From Campylobacteraceae bacterium (GTDB lineage: Bacteria > Campylobacterota > Campylobacteria > Campylobacterales > Sulfurospirillaceae), in NCBI GenBank assembly GCA_027050775.1, contig JALUBH010000020.1:124001-188000 (forward strand): DNA of 64,000 nt, given 5' to 3'. Made by a program: the position numbers and the translations under genes. Below the pieces are notes generated by a model that was not told the origin of the DNA, made no database searches, and saw nothing but the letters and a program-made list of their open reading frames with translations. This document shows, piece by piece, positions 7,336 to 40,207 of this stretch. How positions within the stretch are numbered: the first letter of the stretch is position 1; every line of letters starts with the position of its first letter.

Positions 7336-8418
7336 TTACTTTAATTTAAAAAATTTTATTTTTTTAGCCATAAAATAGAGTATAAAAGCCCATAAAATCA
7401 CGCTGCTAGAGATAGTTATAAAATTTGAATTCTCTTGGGTATTGATTATCGAAAGGGGGTTAATATTTGAAATATCAAATATATAATCAAGCCCTAAGCC
7501 AAAAATCAAACTCCCTATTACTATACTGCCTAGGTATATATACAAAGAACGAGAACCTAGTGTCTTTTTTACAACACCCATTGTCACTATGTTTGTAGCC
7601 GGTCCCGCACTCAAAAATACAAAAGCAGCGCCGGCACTCACGCCTGAAAGCATCAAAGCAGCGGCGATAGGCAGCGAAGCTGTAGCACAAACATACATAG
7701 GTGCTGCAATCGCGACAGCAATGATATAAGAAATCCAAGCATGATCCACCAAGATACTACTTAAATTTTCAGGAATTGCGACACTTATGACAGCCCCTAA
7801 CATCAAACCCCAAAAAAGAGGCTTGGCAATATCAGCTAAAAGTGTAACAAATGAATATCTGAGTGCTCTCTTTAGTGAAAATTTCTTAACTTCAATTTTT
7901 TCCTCGATTTTTTTATTTTGAGAAAAAGATGCAAATGTAGTAGAACTTGGTTTTGTAAGATTTACACCTTTTGCGAGTGAAAATTTTGGTTCAGCTTTTT
8001 GCTCCTCTTTATCAAAAATATTTGTCAAAATACCGGCTATCATGGCTATAACCATAGATGACAGAACCCTATAGAGAGTAAATATCCATCCAAACATACC
8101 GTAGGTAGCAAATATAGAGTCCACTCCTGTTATAGGGGTTGAAATCAAAAAAGAGAGTGTTGAGCCTTTGCTTGCACCACTCTTTTTGATACTCGCAGCC
8201 AATGGTATCACTCCACAAGAGCAAACAGGCAACGGAATACCAAAAAAAGTCGATTTTACTACTGAAGTAATATCTCCTTTTCCCAAATGCTTAGTCACTA
8301 AACTTTGCGGTACAAGTTCGTGTAAAATACCTGCAAAGATGAGTCCAAAAAGTATATAAGGCGCCATTGCATTGCTTAGCTCTATCAGTGAGTGAAAAAA
8401 ATCAATAATAATTTCCAT
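7336..8418 (-). CDS. YraQ/DUF318-type permease (SO_0444-like metal efflux)
   Basis: 360 residues with about eight to ten hydrophobic segments in two homologous halves, separated by a hydrophilic loop at about residues 135-185. The first half contains FGIPLPVCSCGVIPLA (about 58-73), a Cys-rich motif of the predicted-permease family that includes SO_0444-type Cu/Zn efflux proteins and arsenic permeases; the second half repeats the pattern with MYVCATASLPIAAAL. Gene is divergent from an ArsR-family regulator, which suggests metal(loid)-controlled expression. Exact substrate cannot be read from sequence. Confidence 0.82.
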   Translation of the reverse strand: MEIIIDFFHSLIELSNAMAPYILFGLIFAGILHELVPQSLVTKHLGKGDITSVVKSTFFGIPLPVCSCGVIPLAASIKKSGASKGSTLSFLISTPITGVDSIFATYGMFGWIFTLYRVLSSMVIAMIAGILTNIFDKEEQKAEPKFSLAKGVNLTKPSSTTFASFSQNKKIEEKIEVKKFSLKRALRYSFVTLLADIAKPLFWGLMLGAVISVAIPENLSSILVDHAWISYIIAVAIAAPMYVCATASLPIAAALMLSGVSAGAAFVFLSAGPATNIVTMGVVKKTLGSRSLYIYLGSIVIGSLIFGLGLDYIFDISNINPLSIINTQENSNFITISSSVILWAFILYFMAKKIKFFKLK

Positions 8419-8460
8419 TTTTAAATTACTCCATTATTTAATTTTATGCTAAAATACATA

Positions 8461-8496
8461 ATATAACAATTTTATTATATAACAGAATTGTTATAT
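8461..8496. promoter_or_regulatory. Inverted repeat, probable ArsR operator
   Basis: Perfect 11-bp arms ATATAACAATT (8461-8471) and AATTGTTATAT (8486-8496) separated by 14 bp, in the spacer between the divergent permease and arsR genes. Position and symmetry fit an ArsR-family operator controlling both genes; binding itself is inferred. Confidence 0.65.
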
Positions 8497-8520
8497 AACT
8501 TTGCTTTAAAAGGACTTAAA

Positions 8521-8829
8521 CTGGAAAAACTAACTAAAATAGCCAAAATATTTAGCGATAAAAACAGACTTACCATATTTGCGTTGCTTTTAAGAGATAA
8601 CGAGCTTTGCGTTTGTGAAATTTGTGACACCTTAAATCTCTCCCAACCCTTAGTATCTAGGCATTTAAAACAGATGAGAGAAGCCGGCATACTAACAACT
8701 ATACAGAAAAAACAGTGGGTATATTACTTTGTTTCAAAAAAATCGGATCCATTTTTAGACTGCTGGAAAAAAGAGTTAAATAATAAACTCTTATCTCTGC
8801 CAAAGTTGATAGTCTGTAAAAGAAAATAA
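8521..8829 (+). CDS. ArsR-family winged-helix metal(loid) regulator
   Basis: About 102 residues, compact winged-helix repressor. It contains the metal-site-like ELCVCEICDTL (CVC motif at the recognition-helix start, as in ArsR) and the DNA-recognition SQPLVSRHLKQMREAGI. An open TTG at 8488 lies inside the operator palindrome and has no ribosome site. By contrast AAAAGGA (8508-8513) is spaced 7 nt before CTG at 8521, giving a start at LEKLTKIAKIFSD, the usual family N-terminus; I therefore propose a rare CTG start. It probably represses the divergent permease and itself. Confidence 0.85.
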   Translation: MEKLTKIAKIFSDKNRLTIFALLLRDNELCVCEICDTLNLSQPLVSRHLKQMREAGILTTIQKKQWVYYFVSKKSDPFLDCWKKELNNKLLSLPKLIVCKRK

Positions 8830-8834
8830 AATTG

Positions 8835-8883
8835 TGACCTTACACACTCTAATGAGCTTTGCTCATTAGAGTGTGTAAGGTCA
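8835..8883. repeat. Long perfect palindrome (23-bp arms, 3-nt loop)
   Basis: TGACCTTACACACTCTAATG followed by AGC, loop TTT, then the exact reverse complement. No T-tract follows on either side, so it is not a standard Rho-independent terminator, though it lies 5 bp past the arsR stop and could still act as an mRNA 3-prime structure. The ends read TGACC and GGTCA(G). Confidence 0.8.
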
Positions 8884-8921
8884 GTAAAATTCATCAGTAA
8901 AGATTAAGTTTATTTATATTA

Positions 8922-8936
8922 TGATACTGATTATCA
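8922..8936. promoter_or_regulatory. Fur box upstream of the iron permease
   Basis: TGATACTGATTATCA matches the 7-1-7 Fur consensus TGATAATnATTATCA at all but one of the defined positions. It lies 16 bp before the FTR1 start codon, over the expected promoter region, consistent with iron repression. Confidence 0.75.
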
Positions 8937-8952
8937 ATACGAGGATTATGAG

Positions 8953-9750
8953 ATGGAAGAGTTTATAATAACACTAAGGGAGTCACTAGAAGCGGCCTTA
9001 ATAATAGGCATTATATTTAGTTACCTAAAGAAGAGTGGGAAAGATGAGTTAAAGAAATATGTCTATATAGGAATAGTTTTAGGTATGGCAGGAAGCGTTG
9101 TAGGGGCACTATCTTTTCACATTTTAGTTGGAAACTTTGATGGATTGTATGAGCAAATTTTTGAAGGTGTCACCATGATACTTGGTGCAATTTTGATTGT
9201 ATATCTCATCATATGGATGGCAGACAAAAAAGATACCTCTTTGGCAATCAAAAATCAAGTGGACTCTGCACTCAAAAGTAGCAAAAAATTTGGATTGATA
9301 TTTTTAGTTTTTATCTCAATTTTACGAGAAGGTGTCGAAACAACCCTCTTTTTAAATGCGGCATCTGCACAAAGCTCTATTTCGCTTATCTCTGCAATCT
9401 TTGGTATATTGGCCGGATTGGCAGTAGGATATAGTATATATGTGGGCTTAAAAGGCATAAATCTAAGATACCTTTTTAACATAAGCAGTGCTCTTCTTGT
9501 CCTTTTTGCAACAGGCTTATTTGCTAGAGGAGTTCACGAATTTCAAGAGGCTGGAATTATACCTACTTTTGTAGAACACCTTTGGAATATAAACCATATA
9601 ATAAACGAAGATGGCACATTTGGAGGTTTTATAAAATCCCTGTTTGGATACAATGCAAATCCATCTCTTATCGAAGTCTTGGTCTATCTTGGATCTCTTA
9701 GCTTCATGGTGATACTATACAATCAAAAAACTTCTGCTCAAAAAGTTTAG
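8953..9750 (+). CDS. FTR1-family high-affinity iron permease
   Basis: 265 residues, seven predicted membrane segments. Two REXXE iron-binding motifs are visible: RESLEA near residue 9 in the first helix and REGVET near residue 125 in the fourth, as in Ftr1/EfeU permeases. GAGGA precedes the ATG. A Fur box overlaps the promoter. In Campylobacter the homologue works with periplasmic P19; no P19 gene or multicopper oxidase is adjacent here, so the ferric or ferrous donor is unknown. Neighbouring divergent metal genes make this a small metal-homeostasis region. Confidence 0.88.
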   Translation: MEEFIITLRESLEAALIIGIIFSYLKKSGKDELKKYVYIGIVLGMAGSVVGALSFHILVGNFDGLYEQIFEGVTMILGAILIVYLIIWMADKKDTSLAIKNQVDSALKSSKKFGLIFLVFISILREGVETTLFLNAASAQSSISLISAIFGILAGLAVGYSIYVGLKGINLRYLFNISSALLVLFATGLFARGVHEFQEAGIIPTFVEHLWNINHIINEDGTFGGFIKSLFGYNANPSLIEVLVYLGSLSFMVILYNQKTSAQKV

Positions 9751-9782: not shown

Positions 9783-9816
9783 TTATAGCAATAATTTACC
9801 TAAATATTGCTATAAT
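9783..9816 (+). promoter_or_regulatory. Promoter with overlapping operator-like palindrome
   Basis: Perfect inverted repeat TTATAGCAATA (9783-9793) / TATTGCTATAA (9805-9815), 11-bp spacer. The right arm contains the -10 box TATAAT (9811-9816), which ends only 6 bp before the next ATG. Transcription would therefore begin at or next to the start codon, and a repressor bound to the repeat would block it. Confidence 0.6.
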
Positions 9817-9822
9817 CTATAT

Positions 9823-10344
9823 ATGAATAGTTACACTCTGATACATACTGCCTTTTTTGCTGAAGCTAAAGCTGTGATTGAGCACTTTGGGATGCAGTGT
9901 TTGCAAAAAAAGCCATACAGACTATATAAAAGTGAGAAACTCCTGCTTATAGTAAGTGGAATGGGTGCAAAAAATGCTCTACATGTAGAGGCTGTTTTAA
10001 AGGATTTTAAAATCACTAAAGCCATAAACATAGGTATAGCAGGGTGCAAAAATAGAGACATAAAAATTGGCTCACTTTTTTGTACAAATAAAACGCTACC
10101 TGATATAGATTTTGCAACTATCACTTCCGTCTCTAAGCCGTTAGATGATAAAAATAGACTCGATACATGCCTAGTCGATATGGAAGCACAAAGTTTTCTT
10201 GAAATATGCAAAAAAGAGCTAGACGAGGATTTTATATTTGTCTTTAAAGTGGTTTCTGATTATTTGGATACCTCCATCCCGAAAAAAGAGTTTGTAGAAG
10301 AGTTGATAAAAAACAGTATAAAAAAATGGGAAAAATATGTTTAA
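9823..10344 (+). CDS. Nucleoside phosphorylase/nucleosidase-like protein
   Basis: 173 residues resembling the purine nucleoside phosphorylase / MTA-SAH nucleosidase superfamily: VSGMGAKNA near residue 46, INIGIAGCKN near 70, LVDMEAQSF near 120 (equivalent to the substrate-binding VEMEAAA segment) and KVVSDYLD near 145 with the catalytic Asp position. It is shorter than MTAN (about 230), lacking part of the middle. No ribosome site precedes the ATG, consistent with a leaderless message. First gene of a four-gene operon; overlaps the next gene by 8 bp. Residues 52-56 (ALHVE) are encoded by the recurrent palindrome CTCTACATGTAGAG at 9977-9990. Substrate unknown. Confidence 0.75.
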   Translation: MNSYTLIHTAFFAEAKAVIEHFGMQCLQKKPYRLYKSEKLLLIVSGMGAKNALHVEAVLKDFKITKAINIGIAGCKNRDIKIGSLFCTNKTLPDIDFATITSVSKPLDDKNRLDTCLVDMEAQSFLEICKKELDEDFIFVFKVVSDYLDTSIPKKEFVEELIKNSIKKWEKYV

Positions 10345-11581
10345 AGAAAAGTTTGAAAAAAATGTAAAAAACACCTACTTTTTGCAATTAAATTCAAAAA
10401 CACAAGAGTTTATAAGACAAAAAGCACTGAGATATGGTTTCTCTTTTCAAGAATTAAAACAGCTCATAGATATGAGTATAGATTTTGGGATGTGGGATGA
10501 GAAACCAATCTATGATATCTGGCATAACAAGGAAAATAGAAAAGAGACATTTGCACATATAAAAAATATCTGGGAAGAGTTAAAAAACAGACCAAAAAGT
10601 TACAAGGAGTTTTCAAACTCTACCACTTATGACCACTCAAGAAAGATAAGTTTCATACAAAATGACAAAGAGGAGCTCGGGCTTGGAAAGTGCCCTGTAG
10701 CATCACCAAAAACTAGATGTTGCAACCTCATGACTCTTGACGCCGTTGAGAGCTGTGGATTTGACTGCTCTTACTGCTCTATACAGTCATTTTACAATGA
10801 AAATAAAATCGGATTTGATAAAAATTTTGCCAAAAAATTAAAAAATCTAAAATTAGATCCAAATAAAAACTACCATATAGGCACCGGACAGAGTTCCGAC
10901 TCTCTTCTTTGGGGAAACAAAGAGGGTATCATGGAGGCACTTTTTGAGTTTGCGGATGAAAATCCAAATGTAATTTTAGAGTTAAAAAGCAAATCTAAAA
11001 ATATAAAATATCTACTAGAAAACAGAGTTCCAAAAAACATACTGTGCACTTGGTCACTAAACCCAGAAATTATAGTAGAAAATGAAGAACACCTAAGTGC
11101 CTCGCTTGATGAGAGGATTGAGTCTGCTAGAGCATTGGCAGACAAAGGCGTATTGGTTGGGTTTCACTTTCACCCTATCGTCGTTTTTGAAGACTATCTG
11201 TTTGAATACAAGAAGATAGCTAAAAGACTCATAAAAACTTTCAGTCCAAAAGAGGTGGTGCTTGTCTCTATGGGAACTTTGACATTTATAAAACCTGTCA
11301 TAAAAAAACTGAGACAAAGGAGTTTTAAGAGTAAGATTTTACAAATGCCTCTTATAGATGCGAGCGGAAAATTTTCCTATCCATTAGAGACGAAAAAAGA
11401 GATGTTTAAAAATCTATACGATGCCTTTGAACCTTGGCATAAGGATGTCTATTTTTACCTTTGTATGGAGGACCACAGCTTATGGAAAGATGTATTTGGA
11501 TATGAGTATAGCTCAAACGAAGAGATGGAAAAAGATATGATTGATTCATACAAAAATTGCATAGATGAGGTGCGTAAATGA
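10337..11581 (+). CDS. Spore-photoproduct-lyase-like radical SAM protein
   Basis: 414 residues. The CX3CX2C cluster motif CGFDCSYC lies at residues 140-147, the spacing used by spore photoproduct lyase rather than the common CX3CX2C-after-strand-1 placement near the N-terminus. The region after it (YCSIQSFY, then HIGTGQSSDSLLW near 180) also resembles SPL. Residues 1-130 form a helical extension. The organism group does not sporulate, so DNA spore-photoproduct repair is unlikely to be the main job. It is embedded between a nucleosidase-like and an SDR gene with 8-bp and 4-bp overlaps, suggesting a shared pathway. Confidence 0.78.
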   Translation: MFKEKFEKNVKNTYFLQLNSKTQEFIRQKALRYGFSFQELKQLIDMSIDFGMWDEKPIYDIWHNKENRKETFAHIKNIWEELKNRPKSYKEFSNSTTYDHSRKISFIQNDKEELGLGKCPVASPKTRCCNLMTLDAVESCGFDCSYCSIQSFYNENKIGFDKNFAKKLKNLKLDPNKNYHIGTGQSSDSLLWGNKEGIMEALFEFADENPNVILELKSKSKNIKYLLENRVPKNILCTWSLNPEIIVENEEHLSASLDERIESARALADKGVLVGFHFHPIVVFEDYLFEYKKIAKRLIKTFSPKEVVLVSMGTLTFIKPVIKKLRQRSFKSKILQMPLIDASGKFSYPLETKKEMFKNLYDAFEPWHKDVYFYLCMEDHSLWKDVFGYEYSSNEEMEKDMIDSYKNCIDEVRK

Positions 11582-12234
11582 AAACAGCCCTTATGAGCGG
11601 CGCAAGCAGTGGAATCGGAAAAGCCATAAAAGAAAAACTTAAAATCAACGGATATAGAGTTTTTAATATCGGAAGAACAGATGCACAAATCACTTGTGAT
11701 TTGCAAGATAGCAAGGTTTTAGAAAAAAAGGTAAAAGAGCTCTTAAAAACAACCGATATAGACCTGCTCGTCAACTGTGCCGGAATAGGCATATTTCAGC
11801 CACACGAGGAGATATCGCTCAAAAAAATAGAAGAGTTGATAGATGTAAACCTAAAAGCACCGATACTTCTTTGCAATTTATGTCTTAGAAGCCTTAAAAA
11901 AACACAGGGGCATATCATAAACATATCCTCTATCGAAGCGACAAAACACTCAAAATTTTCGGCTCTATATACAGCTACAAAGAGTGGACTTAGAGATTTT
12001 TCACTCTGCTTATTTGAGGAGTTGAGAAAATCTGGCGTAAGAGTGACAAATGTAAATCCTGACATCACCAAGACAGCGTTTTTTGATGACTTACAGTTTG
12101 AACCCTCCAGCGAAAAACAAAGTTATATAGACCCGGATAATTTAGCCACAAATGTATTGGAGATTATAAACTCACCGTTTGTAACTACTGATATAACCAT
12201 AAGAGCACAAAAATTTATGATAAGGAAGAGATGA
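11578..12234 (+). CDS. Short-chain dehydrogenase/reductase
   Basis: 218-residue classical SDR: cofactor loop SGASSGIG at residues 7-14, NCAG near 64-67, catalytic Ser in ISSIEA near 113 and YTATK near 126-130. The C-terminal substrate region is short. Start overlaps the radical SAM gene as ATGA and its stop overlaps the NosD-like gene as ATGA, so all are translationally coupled. Substrate unknown. Confidence 0.85.
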   Translation: MKTALMSGASSGIGKAIKEKLKINGYRVFNIGRTDAQITCDLQDSKVLEKKVKELLKTTDIDLLVNCAGIGIFQPHEEISLKKIEELIDVNLKAPILLCNLCLRSLKKTQGHIINISSIEATKHSKFSALYTATKSGLRDFSLCLFEELRKSGVRVTNVNPDITKTAFFDDLQFEPSSEKQSYIDPDNLATNVLEIINSPFVTTDITIRAQKFMIRKR

Positions 12235-13481
12235 TGAGAAACATTTTTTTGAGCATAGTTCTATTTTATAGCACATCTTTATTTGCAAGCCAAAACTTAA
12301 ACCAAATCATAGCCAAGGCAAAAGCTGGCTCAAAGATAGAGTTACCAAAAGGCATATTTAAAGGCCCAATCATCATAGATAAGCCATTAATTTTAGCGGG
12401 ATCCGGCAAAGATAGTATCATAGAAAATGATGGTAACGACACAATTATAACTATAAAAAGCTCTCATGTAAGCATAGAAAATCTCACTCTAAGAGGAAGT
12501 GGGCATCACAGATACAAGCTAGATAGCGGCATTAGAGCCGATAATGTTCAGGATATCGAGATAAAAAACTGCAATTTTGACAGAACACTTTTTGGGATTA
12601 TTTTTTTCGGTATAAAAAACTCAAAAATCATAAACAACACTATGAAATCATATAGAGAAAAAATAGTAGATAACAGAGGTGATGGGATACTACTATGGGG
12701 CTCAAGCAACAATATCATTGATGGAAACCGTCTTTTTGAAAGCAAAGACATGGCCATCAGCAGATCCAACCACAATATCATCAGAAATAATATCATTGAA
12801 AATGGAAGATATGGGATGCTGATCAATAAGAGCAAAAACACATCCATAGAGTCTAATAAAATCTACTCAAACTATGTAGGTATAAGATGTGAAGGCGCCA
12901 AAAATATCAAAATAGATAATAATATCGTAGCAAAAAATCGTCGCTCTTCAGGCATAGGTATTATGCTTGCTGGTGGTACAAATATACATGTAACTCACAA
13001 CACTATAATGGATAATGCCCAAGCTATTTATATCAAGTCAAAAGCTGCAAAAACCGGAGTGAAAAGATATATAGAGTACAATAAAATCCTAAACAATAAT
13101 ATAGCTTTTCATTTCTACGCCACTATAAAAAACAATACTATCAAGTACAATAACATTATAGGAAATCTTGAAGATGTTGTAAAAAGTGTGAGAAGTGTGA
13201 AATATTGCAAAGATAATATAGAAAAAAATTATTGGGATAGATGTATGGGTTTAGACAAAAATAAGGACGGAATCAGCGATACTCCCTATTTGGTTCTTAA
13301 CTATGTTGATAAACTTTGGCAATTTGACCCGCAGATAAAATTTTTTTATGGCGCACCTTTGCTATGTATCGTAGATTTGATGGAGAAATTAGCACCTTTC
13401 ACCGAACCAAACCTCGTTTTTAAAGATACTAAACCTGAAACCAAACCTATCTCAAATGTGGGGGCTATGTCTTTTCCTTAG
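12231..13481 (+). CDS. NosD-like periplasmic right-handed beta-helix protein
   Basis: 416 residues. Signal peptide at residues 1-18 (hydrophobic core, cleavage after SLFA). Residues 20-320 are made of repeated hydrophobic/Asn turns (for example IKNSKIINN, SNNIIDGNR, SHNIIRNNI) typical of parallel beta-helix proteins of the NosD/pectate-lyase-like class. The region after 330 (DGISDTPY...) also matches NosD. NosD proteins help assemble nitrous-oxide reductase, but no nosZ or other nos gene is present in the window, so that role is only one option; carbohydrate binding is another. Two ATGs (12231, 12234) are possible behind AAGGAAG. Confidence 0.75.
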   Translation: MMRNIFLSIVLFYSTSLFASQNLNQIIAKAKAGSKIELPKGIFKGPIIIDKPLILAGSGKDSIIENDGNDTIITIKSSHVSIENLTLRGSGHHRYKLDSGIRADNVQDIEIKNCNFDRTLFGIIFFGIKNSKIINNTMKSYREKIVDNRGDGILLWGSSNNIIDGNRLFESKDMAISRSNHNIIRNNIIENGRYGMLINKSKNTSIESNKIYSNYVGIRCEGAKNIKIDNNIVAKNRRSSGIGIMLAGGTNIHVTHNTIMDNAQAIYIKSKAAKTGVKRYIEYNKILNNNIAFHFYATIKNNTIKYNNIIGNLEDVVKSVRSVKYCKDNIEKNYWDRCMGLDKNKDGISDTPYLVLNYVDKLWQFDPQIKFFYGAPLLCIVDLMEKLAPFTEPNLVFKDTKPETKPISNVGAMSFP

Positions 13482-39555: not shown

Positions 39556-39631
39556 GACTCGTTAGCTCAGTCGGTAGAGCATCTCCCTTTTAAGGAGGTG
39601 GCCGTTGGTTCGAATCCAACACGGGTCACCA
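39556..39631 (+). tRNA. tRNA-Lys (TTT), copy 1
   Basis: 76 nt with encoded CCA. Cloverleaf: acceptor GACTCGT/ACGGGTC, anticodon loop CTTTTAA with TTT, T-loop GGTTCGAATCC. First gene of a six-tRNA cluster. Confidence 0.97.
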
Positions 39632-39641
39632 TTTATTTTGC

Positions 39642-39717
39642 GACCCCATCGTCTAGTGGTCCAGGACCCCGCCCTTTCACGGCGGTAACAGGGGTTCAAA
39701 TCCCCTTGGGGTCGCCA
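39642..39717 (+). tRNA. tRNA-Glu (TTC)
   Basis: 76 nt with CCA. Acceptor GACCCCA/TGGGGTC, anticodon loop CTTTCAC with TTC, T-loop GGTTCAAATCC. 10 bp after tRNA-Lys. Confidence 0.97.
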
Positions 39718-39760
39718 TCTTACACTTTGAAAAGTGCCTGGACATATTTTATTGTTAATT

Positions 39761-39836
39761 GGTCGTTTAGCTCAGTTGGTAGAGCGCCACCCTTACAAGG
39801 TGGATGTCAGAAGTTCGAGTCTTCTAACGACCACCA
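39761..39836 (+). tRNA. tRNA-Val (TAC)
   Basis: 76 nt with CCA. Acceptor GGTCGTT/AACGACC, anticodon loop CTTACAA with TAC, T-loop AGTTCGAGTC. Confidence 0.97.
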
Positions 39837-39881
39837 TTTTAGTGACATTGTATTTAAACTTTTTAGATACATACAAAGGTT

Positions 39882-39958
39882 GCGGCGGTAGTTTAGTTGG
39901 TTAGAATATCGGCCTGTCACGCCGAGGGTCGCGAGTTCGAGTCTCGTCCGCCGCGCCA
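39882..39958 (+). tRNA. tRNA-Asp (GTC)
   Basis: 77 nt with CCA. Acceptor GCGGCGG/CCGCCGC, anticodon loop CTGTCAC with GTC, T-loop AGTTCGAGTC. Confidence 0.97.
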
Positions 39959-40042
39959 TTTTTATTTTTATTCTCTTCTTAATTAAAGTTTATAAATTAG
40001 ATTATCAAGACATAGAAAATATAAAAAATTTATCATATTTGT

Positions 40043-40118
40043 GACTCGTTAGCTCAGTCGGTAGAGCATCTCCCTTTTAAGGAGGTGGCCGTTGGTTCGA
40101 ATCCAACACGGGTCACCA
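40043..40118 (+). tRNA. tRNA-Lys (TTT), copy 2
   Basis: Identical in all 76 positions to the copy at 39556-39631; together with the following tRNA-Glu it is a duplicated Lys-Glu pair. Confidence 0.97.
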
Positions 40119-40131
40119 TTTATTTTTTTGC

Positions 40132-40207
40132 GACCCCATCGTCTAGTGGTCAAGGACCCCGCCCTCTCAAGGCGGTAACAGGGGTTCAAATCCCCTTGGG
40201 GTCGCCA
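40132..40207 (+). tRNA. tRNA-Glu (CTC)
   Basis: 76 nt with CCA, near-copy of the tRNA-Glu at 39642 but with three changes: a D-loop C to A, anticodon first base T to C (anticodon CTC, reading GAG) and loop position 38 C to A. It would be a dedicated GAG-decoding isoacceptor. Confidence 0.92.

Follow-up and report, generated by a model that had tools for sequence, protein, structure and literature searches.

What does a radical S-adenosylmethionine (SAM) protein that resembles spore photoproduct lyase (SPL) do when its gene overlaps those of a nucleosidase and a dehydrogenase? The question is raised by four plus-strand genes in a 64,000-nucleotide stretch of a Campylobacterales genome (contig JALUBH010000020.1 of 276,608 bases, positions 124,001 to 188,000; hereafter the window), which encode a nucleosidase (NUC), the SPL-like radical SAM protein (RS), a short-chain dehydrogenase (SDR) and a paralogue of NosD (NosD-2). 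Comparison among genomes shows that NUC, RS and SDR are a conserved and co-inherited unit, and we hold with high confidence that they constitute one functional module of three genes. They very probably act in one shared pathway rather than in the repair of spore DNA. A check of the open reading frames placed all four genes exactly at the coordinates given by an earlier, sequence-only reading of the window, with overlaps of 8 bp (NUC/RS), 4 bp (RS/SDR) and 4 bp (SDR/NosD-2), and the family names proposed there hold as well, at the level of the superfamily. The features of the locus, in window positions, are the following.

9811..9816, + strand: TATAAT -10 element, ending 6 nucleotides 5' of the NUC ATG (sequence, kept in relatives)
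9823..10344, + strand: NUC, a short nucleosidase of 173 amino acids with the fold of methylthioadenosine nucleosidase (MTAN) (PF01048, AlphaFold, conserved catalytic residues)
10177..10185, + strand: NUC codons for D119-M120-E121, the ribose-binding/catalytic motif, which reads DKQ in a clade of genomes that lost RS (alignment)
10337..11581, + strand: RS, an SPL-like radical SAM protein of 414 amino acids (PF20903, AlphaFold, fold matches in the PDB)
10754..10777, + strand: radical SAM cluster motif CX3CX2C of RS, C140-C144-C147 (sequence/alignment)
11578..12234, + strand: SDR, a short-chain dehydrogenase of 218 amino acids with intact N91-S118-Y131-K135 tetrad (PF00106, alignment)
12231..13481, + strand: NosD-2, a right-handed beta-helix NosD paralogue, probably secreted (TIGR04247)

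The co-occurrence of the three genes was studied in 397 genomes of the Campylobacterota and, elsewhere, in plasmid and viral collections, with NUC scored as present at E < 1e-20 and SDR at E < 1e-40. RS was detected in 92 of the 397 genomes, 79 with an orthologue (long RS) and 13 with a distant SPL-like (short) RS, while NUC occurs in 102 and SDR in 76. All 92 RS genomes also have NUC, in two of them just as a partial or split match; SDR is present in 73 of the 92 (Fisher p about 1e-76 for NUC and 1e-57 for SDR, uncorrected for phylogeny, as are the E-values). Three genomes that appeared to carry NUC only (G051, G090 and G133) were found on reading to have a distant RS, and in the sampled genomes of genus g3 RS and NUC are either both present or both absent. 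The order of the genes is also recurrent. NUC lies mostly directly upstream of RS, and SDR mostly downstream or near, in 30 RS-bearing relatives, and at the 67 long-RS loci NUC is directly upstream at 39, with an overlap at 38. In several genera (loci L131, L149-L151, L164-L166 and L171) a short RS, about 21–26% identical to the RS of the window, follows NUC and precedes SDR, and no genome of the phylum sample has both long and short RS. Because RS is located away from the other two genes in genus g21 (family f17), while NUC and SDR can adjoin each other there, the co-occurrence is independent of linkage. In g21 and f19, where NUC or SDR does not adjoin RS, the neighbours of RS that were read (clusters c58, c32, c69 and c46), and not searched against a family library, have no apparent link to a pathway.

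Fusion and loss events are also informative about the partnership. In Fusobacterium vincentii (L133:3876-5747) NUC and RS form a single fusion protein of 623 amino acids, and the next gene is SDR. The viral and plasmid collections contained no trio relatives beyond this one, and the NUC search of the plasmids was empty. The F. vincentii record (NZ_CP084075.1) is a 2.1-Mb "plasmid" with almost no annotation, judged by its size probably a misfiled chromosome. Eight genomes of family f9 that are without RS and SDR (L142, L143, L145 and L184-L188) retain a NUC in which VDMEA is changed to VDKQA, NIGIAG to DLSIAS and SGIG to SGVS, with the catalytic Glu altered. These altered proteins make up a single, long-stemmed clade that falls within the NUCs of RS-bearing f9 genomes, and the catalytic Glu is kept in all other NUCs examined. 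Comparison of these lineages shows that the NUC active site is kept only where RS is present, with one exception, which is weighed below. As a separate observation, the altered NUC of the eight genomes may have been repurposed after the loss of RS and SDR. When G205 is compared with its congener G161, one deletion of 1.75 kb accounts for the removal of RS and nearly all of NUC, and the adjoining SDR was retained. The sequence-only reading had named free separation of the genes in related genomes, with no co-occurrence, as the outcome that would count against a common pathway; we found the opposite, since the genes are linked in many families, can be fused and co-occur when unlinked. Because NUC accompanies RS in every case, occurs fused to it and degenerates in its absence, it would act on something that RS makes, either the by-product 5'-deoxyadenosine or a 5'-adenosyl adduct.

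Which reaction could such a nucleosidase catalyse? NUC matches PF01048 (34 bits, cut-off 25) and has the fold and the catalytic Glu, Met-Glu and Ser-Asp residues of this nucleosidase/phosphorylase family, and it scores below the equivalog cut-offs of MTAN (27–34 bits versus 161–169) and HpnG (24.3 bits versus 187). The best PDB matches of its AlphaFold model (predicted local distance difference test, pLDDT, of 95) are Helicobacter pylori MTAN and futalosine hydrolase, and the short Chlamydia protein CT263 is also among the structural matches. The alignment revealed conserved E14, D119-M120-E121, K142, S145 and D146; from what is known of MTAN, we take E14 to activate water, M120-E121 to bind ribose and S145-D146 to protonate adenine N7. 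In an alignment with the host MTAN, NUC is missing about 50 residues in the middle. In MTAN this region holds the loop that lines the 5' pocket, and its truncation would leave the 5' side of NUC open. NUC is not the housekeeping enzyme, because the genome encodes a separate full-length MTAN, plus MqnE; the idea that NUC is the sole MTAN of the host was discarded for the same full-length protein. The host also has a third protein of the purine nucleoside phosphorylase superfamily (G000:C7:74072-74611, L181), weakly conserved and located close to genes resembling rlmN and hisF.

The residues retained in NUC bear on two other explanations of the trio. In the first, the module performs a queuosine-type salvage, in which NUC frees a modified base and RS trims it like queuine lyase. 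QueL is a radical SAM enzyme. NUC keeps, however, the N7-protonating Asp of MTAN, whereas 7-deazapurines have no N7; an MTAN structure with a 7-deaza inhibitor (1nc1) is among the structure matches of NUC. Although the nucleosidase QueK and the lyase QueL make up such a pair (PMC11130926), QueK belongs to a different protein family (IPR023186), the host encodes QueC of the de novo route and SDR would be left without a role, and we regard this salvage as very unlikely. In the second explanation, NUC is dedicated to hydrolysing 5'-deoxyadenosine and so clears an inhibitory by-product of RS, while RS carries out another hydrogen-abstraction chemistry and SDR finishes the product. Radical SAM enzymes are indeed inhibited by 5'-deoxyadenosine, which is removed by MTAN (PMC7557402; PMC8102628), the catalytic residues of MTAN are kept in NUC and a NUC-RS fusion would channel the by-product. 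On the other hand, the full-length MTAN of the host is the type of enzyme that normally does this work, and a 5' substituent as small as a methyl group does not require the 5'-pocket loop to be lost. We consider by-product removal rather unlikely, but a serious competitor.

RS itself is related to SPL but departs from it at key positions. It matches PF20903 with 40 bits (cut-off 27) and reaches 43.9 bits for the SPL equivalog TIGR04070, which has a cut-off of 400. The AlphaFold model (pLDDT 89) has the SPL structures 4fhg, 4rh0 and 4fhc as top PDB matches (template modelling score 0.54–0.68), and RS has both the CX3CX2C motif (C140/C144/C147) and the fold by which SPL proteins are recognised. 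Beyond these features of SPL, RS carries additional helices at its N-terminus and an invariant CPVASxxTRCC motif. When the residues of the hydrogen-atom relay of SPL (PMC5368176) are located in RS, the position of the H-donor Cys141 (Bs) or Cys140 (Gt) is occupied by Gln185, invariant in 28 long RS proteins, and of the relay tyrosines the position of Y97 (Bs) corresponds to Tyr146 and that of Y99 (Bs)/Tyr98 to Ser148. With Gln in place of the H-donor Cys and Ser in place of one relay Tyr, RS is not a canonical SPL, and a role in the repair of spore photoproduct is unlikely, which agrees with the earlier suspicion that SPL-type repair does not fit here. A clostridial SPL uses a Cys at another place (PMC5368176), and in long RS the residues C128/C129 precede the cluster motif, near this alternative site; an altered relay through them is possible in long RS. 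L131 and L132, both short RS proteins, have no Cys in this region. Among the long RS proteins C119, C128, C129 and C376 show little or no variation, and they may be ligands of a putative second cluster.

These data also bear on whether RS could be a DNA repair lyase for ultraviolet-induced or other thymine lesions, with NUC and SDR as incidental neighbours. Its closest fold is that of SPL, SplB-like genes of other proteobacteria are predicted members of SOS regulons (PMC3323433), and the Nautilia profundicola genome paper proposed DNA repair for an SPL homologue that it described as confined to Epsilonproteobacteria from vents (PMC2628731). We infer that this homologue is a member of the RS family, which in our survey spans many genera of the Campylobacterota, always with the nucleosidase. 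The fusion, the gene order and the co-occurrence argue that NUC and SDR are not incidental, SPL regenerates SAM, so that a nucleosidase is not needed, and Cys140/141 and Tyr98/99 are replaced by Gln185 and Ser148, with the caveat of C128/C129 in long RS. A repair function is, on balance, quite improbable.

The third protein, SDR, matches adh_short (PF00106) with 126 bits and has an invariant catalytic N-S-Y-K tetrad in the alignment, and an Arg after strand 2 suggests NADP(H) as its cofactor. We propose that RS would form a 5'-deoxyadenosyl radical and attach it to an unsaturated substrate, either a small molecule or a lipid (or make another 5'-substituted adenosine), that NUC would hydrolyse adenine off this adduct and that SDR, probably NADPH-dependent, would reduce the aldehyde or ketone of the released ribose. 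This route of adenosyl transfer, adenine removal and reduction, drawn by analogy, is a plausible but still tentative assignment. It is favoured over by-product removal because the separate MTAN covers 5'-deoxyadenosine and the gap on the 5' side of NUC would suit a large adduct. The order of steps suggested earlier, in which the nucleosidase trims a nucleoside before RS acts, is doubtful, since NUC has the residues with which MTAN cleaves adenine nucleosides, and these fit a cleavage after RS better.

Several points weigh against the adenosyl-transfer route. RS is SPL-like, and we know of no SPL-fold enzyme that acts as an adenosyl transferase. A dedicated removal of 5'-deoxyadenosine would also explain the coupling of NUC and RS. 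In addition, family f19 and some other genomes have RS and NUC with no clear SDR, the decay of NUC after the loss of RS concerns a single clade and hence one event, and in G359, the exception mentioned above, NUC is intact and no RS was found.

Does NosD-2, whose gene overlaps SDR by 4 bp, belong to the same pathway? If all four genes formed one pathway, the periplasmic beta-helix protein would use or bind the product, and besides the overlap the adjacency of SDR and NosD-2 in L175 and L178, where NUC-RS are elsewhere, could be read in this way. NosD-2 adjoins SDR in five genomes, but all are of the same genus, most genomes with the trio have no NosD beside it (3 of the 30 RS-bearing relatives do), and G039 has a NosD-2-like gene and neither RS nor NUC. 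A four-gene pathway is thus very doubtful, and from these comparisons NosD-2 is best seen as a lineage-specific neighbour at the genus level, an overlapping passenger outside the conserved module. The coupling proposed in the sequence-only reading is supported for the trio, on the evidence of co-occurrence, fusion and linkage, and not for its fourth member. NosD-2 matches TIGR04247 with 307.4 bits (cut-off 300) and is 32% identical to the NosD linked to nosZ in the same genome. It had been remarked that no nos genes lie nearby; NosD-2 is indeed outside a nos cluster, but the genome has nosZ together with its own nosD on another contig (C37), and NosD-2 is a paralogue of this real nosD. The adjacency kept in L175 and L178 hints, on its own, at a local link between SDR and NosD-2.

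The genes of the locus are likely transcribed from one promoter, possibly as a leaderless mRNA, as predicted from the element at 9811..9816. A generic -35/-10 promoter scan detected no promoter upstream of NUC, and the single promoter proposed before is made likely by the conservation of TATAAT or TATACT at the equivalent site 5' of NUC in at least six relatives (L049, L050, L052, L054, L056 and L061). The FTR1 gene at 8953-9750 was rejected as a member of the operon: 72 bp that contain the promoter-like element lie in between, and its association with the trio is not conserved. It is part of a metal-handling group at 7336-9750, with an SO_0444-family Cu/Zn efflux permease and an ArsR regulator, and a strong, terminator-like inverted repeat of 20 bp is found within this group at 8836-8882. 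Farther away in the window, six tRNA genes are clustered at 39556-40207, with Lys and Glu tRNAs present more than once.

Our search of the literature found no paper that describes an SPL-nucleosidase-SDR unit. Annotations commonly call the SPL-like radical SAM proteins of non-spore-formers DNA repair lyases; the trio offers a different and testable assignment for a widespread subgroup of them. The Fusobacterium fusion protein and the lineages with natural losses open the pathway to biochemistry and metabolomics.

Compared with known systems, RS shares with SPL (SplB; PF20903, TIGR04070) the fold, the CX3CX2C motif with the following Gln, the Tyr before the last cluster Cys and the Asp of the TSD motif, and it differs in the Gln for the H-donor Cys, the Ser for the relay Tyr, the extra N-terminal helices, the CPVASxxTRCC motif, the obligate nucleosidase partner and a score far under the TIGR04070 cut-off. 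NUC shares the fold and the catalytic E, ME and SD residues with MTAN and futalosine hydrolase, including CT263, but is about 20% identical, has about 50 middle residues fewer and is tied to an SPL-like radical SAM protein. NosD-2 passes TIGR04247 like the NosD of nitrous oxide reductase clusters, but sits outside the nosZ cluster and has 32% identity to the nosZ-linked copy. With the MqnE-MTAN (aminofutalosine) pathway of menaquinone synthesis, the precedent for adenosyl addition followed by cleavage (PMC7557402), the trio shares the logic of radical SAM adenosyl addition and MTAN-type cleavage, whereas the host has MqnE and MTAN separately and RS matches MqnE structures weakly. With the HpnH-HpnG pathway of the hopanoid side chain, in which the reductase step is known as an activity with no assigned enzyme (PMC12583986), it shares the logic of radical SAM protein, adenine removal and reductase, but RS is SPL-like and the match of NUC to HpnG is weak (24 of 187 bits). 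The trio may represent a third adenosyl-transfer pathway beside those of MqnE (menaquinone) and HpnH (hopanoids), a tentative proposal in which an SPL-fold RS would adenosylate its substrate, a fused or coupled minimal nucleosidase would remove adenine and SDR would reduce the ribose to a polyol. Its end product in Campylobacterota and Fusobacteriota would be a lipid or cofactor not yet described.

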